This document shows, one piece after another, positions 23,747-26,700 of a DNA stretch of 64,000 bases; within the stretch, counting starts at the first letter, position 1; each line of letters opens with the position of its first letter. The position numbers were made by a program, and so were the translations under genes. Source of the stretch: Antedon mediterranea (Eukaryota > Echinodermata > Crinoidea > Comatulida > Antedonidae); NCBI RefSeq assembly GCF_964355755.1, contig NC_092671.1, forward strand, positions 3,173,001 to 3,237,000. The letters run 5' to 3'. Below the pieces are notes generated by a model. It was not told where the DNA came from, searched no databases, and saw only the letters and a program-made list of their open reading frames with translations.

Positions 23747-26700
23747 CTATGCTTTTAGAAACTTGCAGATACGTTTCAATGTTACATGAATGTCTTTGAA
23801 TTGTGACCTCTTTTCCGGTTCATACTCCCAACATGACATCATAATGCGATAAACTTCATCTGGCGTTCCTTGAGGAGCAGACATTCGATAACCTAACGTT
23901 TCAAGAGGAAAAAAATTATAATGTATTTCAGTTGGGACGGTTAAAACCATGCATGTAATTTAAAGGCACGCTCGACTGTGCGTGTAAAGGAATGTTATGT
24001 CATGCTCATTGACAATTTTATTATATACTATAAAATAAAAATATTGTACCTTGTTCAACTTTTTCTCTGGCAACATTATTTGGAAATCCTGGATAGGGTG
24101 TGCTACCCCGGGAAAATATCTCCCACAGCAAAATACCGTAACTCCACACATCACATGCTGATGTATAGGTTCCTAGAAGATAAAGTAAATTGATATGAAC
24201 AATGAGATAAAAATATATTACGGTAGAGGGTTCGCTCAATTAGGCATTCCTGCTCTTAACGAGTGCTCCAGTTGTAGATTAGACTTCCACGTTTTGATAT
24301 TAAATATTAAATTTGACCGTGACTATATAAACCAACCAGAATATTATACTGCATTAGAAACACTTGGCTGAGAAATACCATAGTTAAGAATCAAGCCTAA
24401 GTATTAAGTTTGGTTAAGAATTTCAAAAAAGAAATTTTGAATAAAATTAAGTGGCCAAGTTAATATCACTGAAGGGCATTTGGTTTATTTCTTAAAAATA
24501 TTATAAAATAATCATTTTTTTAAAATTGCTTCTTATTGTGTAGAGTAATAGGAACACACTATTGTACTGTCCAACCCATTCACGTACAAGCGGGAACCAA
24601 GCTTTAGGATTTGTTGAAGTAAATAAAATTCTGAATGTCTCTAAACCTCTGTCTACACTACCAAACTTTATGTGACAAAAAAATATGATGTGACCAAAAT
24701 ATGGACATGATGATGTCATATCACTACCATATTTAAGCACATCACTACCATAATTGGGTACATCACACTTTTTTGTCGAACTAGTTTGATAGTGTAGACA
24801 GAGCTTAAGCAAAAAAATTATTCTAATTCCCAAAACCTTAAATATTTTAGTGCCCAGTGTGAAAACATATTAAATGCATAAAGTCTTAAATAGTCTCTAC
24901 ATAAATTACAATATTAATAAACAGTTTTAAAATTAATGTAGAAAAATAAAAGATGTTTGTAAGGTGTGGAAATTTAGCTATTAGTAAAGGATAGAAATGT
25001 ATGAAAAAATATTCAATACAAAAATGGATAACTTAATAAAACGATTACTAAGAATTTTCAATGGGATAATGATTTGTCTATATTATATTGAAGTAGGACA
25101 AAAATGTATGCAAAAATGATTTAACAAAAAAATGAATAATTTGAATGAACAATTATTCAGCTACTAGGAATTCTAAATTAATGATTTTCAATATTATATG
25201 AATAAGGAAAGGATAAAAAATGTATGCCAAAATGATATTTTCATATTTGAAAAATGCCTTGAATAAAAATTGTATAAAGTAAAGTATTAAAAAAAAGATT
25301 ATTTTGAATAGAGATGATATTAAAAGGAATGGGTGAAAGAGCAATTTGTAATTTTTAAATGATTTACAGACAAATACCAGATTATGCAAATGAGATTTTA
25401 GTTGCTATAGCGAATGACATTTGAGCTGCTGCATTTTTTTTTCAGCCAATCAAATTGCTGATTGAAAATTGTTACCATAATTGAGAGCCTCAGGAGCGGT
25501 CCACTTAATAGGGACCTGTCTAGTATCACCCATCGTATACGTATTATCATCTTCAACTTCTCTCGACATGCCAAAATCGCTAATCTTAGTTACAATGTCA
25601 TGGCCACCTACGTGAACAAGACAATTTCTTGCCGCTAAATCTCTATTAAAATTAAAAGATTATCTTTAAGGAATAGATAGAATAAAGAATACTGTGTGGA
25701 TAGAATATGATACACAATATAATATATTGATTATCTTATGTGCCAAAAAAAAGGAAAACAAAAAACAGAAAAGAAACTTTCATTACAAACAAAGTGTTCA
25801 AATAGTTCATGACTACTATGGTAATTATTTTTTTATTTATCCAAATTGGTTGTATTTATTTGAGGACTGAAAAATACAACATATTTTATTGTGCATCATG
25901 TGACCTAGATCCCACAAAAACATGCCAGCTGGTAGGCTTGCCTCACCAGACACCTCCTTACCATAATTCATAGCCTCCGGTGCAGTCCATTTAATTGGGA
26001 TTTGTCTCATTGAACCACCCACTGAATACACGCCATCTTCCTCCTCTCGTGACATGCCAAAATCGCTGATTTTTACGACACTTTTGTCGCCCACTAGGCA
26101 ATTTCTGGCAGCTAAATCTCTGATGGAATGATAATAGTTAAGCTGAACATGCTAGTAATGGTGGGTGACCATTAGAGAGTTGTATTCATGATAATAATAA
26201 CATTACTATCAGTAAAGTGTAATACAGTTGGTACACCAATATGACTTATATTTATTATTACCCTGCCTGCCCACCGAAAAAAAAGCAATAATAGGTGTAA
26301 CGGTTGAGTAATGAAGAACATATAAGATCGCTAAAAGTTCCATTGAAGTCCTATTCATTAAGGGTATTCTTCAATTAGCCCTTGTGGAAACATCCTCTAA
26401 AATAGATATTAGAATCTATTTATTAGTATCGACTTAAAAGGCAACAGACCTAACACAATTCTACAAGCTTTACTAATTAACAAAGTTGCAATAAAGTTCT
26501 GTCTACACTATCAAACTTTATGTGACAAAAAATTGAGATGTGCCCATATATGAACATGACGACATCATATCACTACCATATTTAGGCATATCACTATCAT
26601 ATTTGGTCACATCACACATTTTTTGTCAACTTGTTTGATAGTGTAGACACAGATGTTTTTACATAATGTTTATACCTGTGGATGCAGTTTTTCTGTTCTA

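Follow-up and report, generated by a model that had tools for sequence, protein, structure and literature searches.

The window, by which we mean the whole 64-kb stretch of DNA that was analysed, contains on its minus strand a gene for a FES/FER tyrosine kinase. The coding span, from an inferred ATG to an inferred stop, runs from about 40808 to 23747 and is divided into 15 coding exons, of which the thirteenth is present in two versions, A and B (Table 1). The two versions are the subject of this analysis.

The FER gene and its surroundings

The exon joins of the gene model were chosen by phase and GT-AG. The short F-BAR exon was found by a targeted scan in which it ranked 1 of 35 candidates on a rough score; we take it to resemble the FER coiled coil. 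Of the introns around the duplicated exon, the one between exon 12 and A has 556 nt, the one separating A and B has 319 nt, and the last, which leads from B to exon 14, has 1303 nt.

Table 1. Features of the FER gene in the window.
Feature	Position	Strand	Basis
Coding exon	40808-40593	-	phase + GT-AG join
Coding exon	39531-39358	-	phase + GT-AG join
Short F-BAR exon	39014-38918	-	targeted scan, rough score
Coding exon	33064-32875	-	phase + GT-AG join
Coding exon	32158-32021	-	phase + GT-AG join
Coding exon	31251-31129	-	phase + GT-AG join
Coding exon	30813-30682	-	phase + GT-AG join
Coding exon	29871-29688	-	phase + GT-AG join
Coding exon	28468-28283	-	phase + GT-AG join
Coding exon	27941-27759	-	phase + GT-AG join
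Exon 11, kinase N-lobe	27320..27533	-	phase + GT-AG join
Exon 12, upstream partner common to A and B; last two bases belong to HRD Arg codon	26676..26799	-	
Exon 13A, 158 nt, HRD Asp to NYG, FES-like lengths	25962..26119	-	
Intron between A and B, 319 nt	25643..25961	-	
Exon 13B, 167 nt, HRD Asp to NYG, beta7-beta8 turn +3 residues	25476..25642	-	
Exon 14, downstream partner common to A and B	24050..24172	-	
Exon 15, coding part, kinase domain end and stop codon	23747..23892	-	

The joined protein, which for the Pfam comparison was an earlier assembly lacking the short F-BAR exon, contains FCH, SH2 and tyrosine kinase domains in that order. All are above the Pfam cut-offs, the FCH match narrowly so (28.6 against a cut-off of 27.8). 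The kinase profile PF07714 matches with 325 bits in the 764-aa form-A protein and with 315 bits in the 257-aa form-B domain. In a search among solved structures the kinase domain of form A is nearest to human FES. For form B the same search puts a two-domain EGFR entry first by summed score and FES second, and by single-domain score FES obtains 300.7 bits against 152.3 bits for the EGFR entry. The preliminary description had called the gene a FER-type kinase, and the F-BAR (FCH)-SH2-kinase order together with a kinase closest to FES bears this out.

Other features of the window lie outside the gene. On the minus strand at 60072-63245 there are cysteine-rich open frames which by eye look like LDL-receptor class A repeats; the G+C content of the window is highest here (0.40). 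A 258-codon open frame on the plus strand (50979-51755) resembles, again by eye, an F-box/leucine-rich-repeat protein. Tandem arrays are found at 54760-55251 (a 249-bp unit, 2.0 copies), 15787-16250 (22 bp, 21 copies) and 8161-8680 (139 bp, 3.7 copies).

Two versions of exon 13

The preliminary description placed two exons 319 nt apart, both coding for the segment from the Asp of HRD to NYG; its coordinates, the lengths of 158 and 167 nt, the spacing, the GT-AG ends and the identical phases were all found to be exact. Both exons start with AGAT and end with AATTATG. Exon 12 stops two bases into the HRD Arg codon, and because A and B start and end alike, either of them fits between exons 12 and 14. 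Translation with A alone or B alone stays open to the end of the kinase (...ICKFLKA followed by the stop). With A and B joined the frame is stopped after ...EAMNYEI and with neither exon after ...CIHRNLYISM; these stops lie 285 and 104 nt, respectively, upstream of the last junction. A stop more than about 50 nt upstream of the last junction generally marks an mRNA for nonsense-mediated decay, and by this rule both the both-exon and the neither-exon mRNA should be decay targets. The claim that using both exons or neither breaks the frame was therefore correct. The further claim that selection must be exclusive holds for the working protein, where the frame enforces it; it does not hold for splicing itself, in which A could be joined to B unproductively.

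Within the window A and B find each other at E 7.5e-20 and 3.5e-20, well outside what chance would give, and no third copy was seen in it, the next match having E 0.43 with A as query and 0.51 with B. Searching the genome with B yielded 15 matches; two of these, A and B themselves, fall in FER and the others lie elsewhere. Apart from B itself, A is matched best (75%, E 1.5e-15). A different kinase follows in order of E-value (58%, E 9.5e-9), and identity elsewhere does not exceed 61%. The genome was also searched for duplicated activation exons, with 150 of 255 candidates scored. In the 141 rows obtained, inspected by eye, FER A/B is the sole case of two short exons on the same strand, less than 5 kb apart and matching the same part of the query. 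Close pairs on C11 near 21.15 Mb and 5.21 Mb overlap only in part and were rejected as consecutive exons whose matches extend into the intron, and a cluster on C8 with about 4 kb between members consists of open frames of 279-326 codons. A and B were not among the matches listed in a genome search with PF07714, for which 133 of 774 candidates were scored, and this search therefore has no bearing on duplicated activation exons. A second in-frame donor (GTGAGG, preceded by ctg) is present at 25947, 15 nt past the A donor; it would add KEVSG to form A and may be there by chance.

The catalytic residues are kept in both exons as had been claimed, the catalytic loop DLAARNCLV being the same in 9 of 9 residues. 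A 10-residue stretch is also the same throughout (10/10), and so are 13 of 15 residues in the P+1 region. The changes are concentrated in the beta7-beta8 turn and the activation-loop tip. At the tip the alignment confirms the different tyrosine contexts, EDGVYS in A and EDDNTYT in B. The beta7-beta8 turn had been described as longer in A; if A is the 158-nt exon with EDGVYS this has to be reversed, as the three additional residues are in the 167-nt B. The distance from DFG to APE is 30 residues in A, B and FES alike, and within it the tyrosine, presumably the one that is autophosphorylated in FES/FER, occupies place 13 in A and FES but place 14 in B. It should be noted that the places which differ between A and B also vary among tyrosine kinases generally, so that divergence at these places is by itself no proof of a new function. 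Since the P+1 regions are nearly the same, we infer from the alignment that the two forms would more likely differ in activation control than in substrate choice. We predict, on reasoned grounds, that the two kinases differ in function.

Constraint, age and origin of the probable duplication

A and B are identical in 38 of 51 aligned residues. At the nucleotide level they are much further apart: of the 36 identical residues with degenerate codons 17 use a different codon, 8 of 12 fourfold sites differ, and the differences fall as 11, 7 and 25 on the three codon positions. The corresponding dN is 0.19 (NG86) or 0.20 (LWL85) and dS is 2.2 (NG86) or 1.4 (LWL85), and the synonymous sites thus look close to saturation. 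The protein identity was compared with a neutral simulation, based on one genome and a simple mutation model, in which A drifts unconstrained until it reaches an equal third-position divergence. The frame was open in 1,015 of the 20,000 runs and none had an identity as high as that between A and B (mean 11.8/51, maximum 30). Gauged in this way, between A and B in one genome, both exons have been kept as kinase sequence and B does not look like a relic. The comparison with neutral drift cannot date the duplication.

It could still be argued that B is an unused relic or pseudo-exon left by an old duplication, and the donor of B does pair with U1 less well than that of A. A relic would not be expected to retain the frame, the phase, both splice sites and the catalytic and DFG motifs in the face of such strong synonymous divergence, and with no neutral run out of 20,000 matching the pair we find this explanation quite improbable. 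B might instead serve mainly as a switch which lowers FER output through a decay-prone A+B mRNA, the B protein being secondary. The immediate stop produced when A is joined to B is what such a switch would use; a pure decay switch has no need, however, of an exon which on its own gives an intact kinase with a constrained protein sequence, and the chance that this is the main role of B is slim.

The exon could also have been captured from another tyrosine kinase of the Src/Abl type and not be a duplicate of FER at all. The tip EDDNTYT resembles the loops of such kinases, and one paralogue loop in the genome (L001) reads IEDDEYTARQGAK. Against this, B has stretches of 10 and 15 letters in common with FES, its best match in the genome is A at 75% with all others at 61% or below, and A and B have both boundaries and phases in common; a capture has next to no probability. 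A duplication within FER is the most probable origin of B, and the comparison with human FES has some bearing on its age. A agrees with FES in 39 of 52 positions without gaps. B agrees with it in 38 of 51 aligned positions plus gaps, and A and B agree with each other likewise in 38 of 51 plus gaps. At two sites (RQVP and EALNY) B carries the V and L of FES where A carries I and M; this speaks against B as a recent copy made from A in its present form. These values fit an old duplication, although a faster evolution of B could mimic age. The three extra residues of B before KISDFG are found in no other row of an alignment of paralogues, FES and EGFR, made up of the 9 readable of 11 paralogue stretches (L004 and L008 were left out, and L005 has a false start) and the two reference kinases. 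Judged by lengths, A is the conservative copy.

Choice between the exons and its meaning

Pairing with U1 was scored for 13 of the 15 donors of the gene model. The A donor is the strongest of these at -8.5 kcal/mol and the B donor the third weakest at -5.0. Because the A donor pairs best and A comes first, A is probably the default exon, and B would need A to be silenced. Several means of making the choice exclusive were considered. There is no sign of steric or distant-branch-point exclusion in the 319-nt intron, in which the AG-free zone before the B acceptor is 21 nt. A mixing of U12 and major introns was rejected, since the donors GTAAGG and GTAACA by eye do not resemble the U12 consensus. 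Exclusivity of the Dscam type works through docking by intronic RNA pairing. For the three intron pairs here, 16, 0 and 10 of 20 double shuffles were as strong as the natural sequences; the intron before A entered this comparison with 557 nt in place of 556, which leaves the outcome unaffected. The best pair (-36.9 kcal/mol), which no double shuffle equalled, was equalled by 20 of 60 shuffles of the long intron only, and intron pairing was rejected as the mechanism. Around the A donor and the B donor the RNA shows no unusual local folding (z -0.01 and 0.71).

One palindromic, MITE-like repeat, some 160 nt long, has a copy at 26498-26652 in the intron before A and another at 24645-24806 in the intron after B. 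It is dispersed in the genome, where 40 of 3,815 candidates were scored and gave at least 82 rows, many of the rows being one copy read on both strands. The two copies could pair with each other (-141.3), and self-folding gives about as much (-64.4 and -75.3). We take these repeats to be bystanders and not regulators of splicing, as they are dispersed and fold on themselves about as well as they pair. The remaining means of exclusivity, trans-acting factors together with decay triggered by the frame, are the likely ones.

It is well supported that A and B are real and alternative exons. We hold it very probable that they arose by an old tandem duplication of an internal FER exon and that they are spliced in a mutually exclusive, frame-enforced manner, probably with A as the default. 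The duplication would have given two versions of a segment that begins at the Asp of the catalytic loop and ends a little beyond APE. Exon 12 would be spliced to one of the two, and this one to exon 14; a transcript with both exons or neither would meet an early stop and be removed by nonsense-mediated decay, and the working protein would be either FER-A or FER-B. A has FES-like lengths, and its donor pairs with U1 best among those scored; it would probably be used by default. B, which lies behind A and has a weaker donor, would probably require repression of A and be restricted to a tissue or stage. The two proteins would carry out identical chemistry with a P+1 pocket almost unchanged between them, and would differ in activation-loop control and in the beta7-beta8 surface.

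The nearest known case in kind is FYN, an SH2-bearing tyrosine kinase in which tandem duplicated exons are used one at a time and tissue-specifically (FynB and FynT; PMC9741552); for A and B single use is a prediction. The FYN exons code for the linker between SH2 and kinase and for the first part of the kinase domain, which holds the ATP site, whereas those of FER cover the catalytic loop to APE. JNK1 also has alternative exons inside the kinase domain (6a and 6b, in zebrafish 7 and 8) with a proposed role in substrate specificity, but their place is on the C-lobe, the activation loop belongs to the part that does not change, and the enzyme is a Ser/Thr kinase (PMC7259801). In OGDH the mutually exclusive exons 4a and 4b tune enzyme control; exclusivity there results from distant branch points located close to the donor of the intron between the two exons, of which FER gives no sign (PMC7969005). 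A survey of human mutually exclusive exon clusters bears on the frame logic proposed here. In 377 of the clusters (60%) the exon lengths are no multiple of three, and including both exons is then unproductive; the frame-enforced type is thus common. Reads joining the exons were found for 83 of the 377; it is a human survey, and FER does not occur in its main text (PMC5740500). Among the matches listed in a search of titles and abstract starts of the open-access literature there was no report of duplicated activation exons in FES or FER, which is weak evidence of absence. The type of arrangement is thus known from FYN and JNK, and its position in the kinase may be new as far as those matches go.

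A wider reading is possible, and we offer it tentatively. One FER gene may give two kinases which differ solely in the switch from the catalytic base to APE and which are switched on by different signals. They would have split long ago, perhaps at about the time of the separation from vertebrates, and splicing would do the job of the second FES/FER gene of vertebrates. That two signals are involved is suggested, equally tentatively, by the tyrosine of B, which is shifted by one residue within a loop whose length is unchanged, and by the enlarged beta7-beta8 turn of B.

Among kinases, FYN swaps exons at the ATP-site end and JNK on the C-lobe. An exchange that reaches from the catalytic base through the activation loop amounts to an experiment of nature on the control exerted by this segment itself with the rest of the enzyme constant, and A and B provide two matched sequences for assay. 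If true, it would show that splicing can set the activation logic of a cytoplasmic tyrosine kinase.
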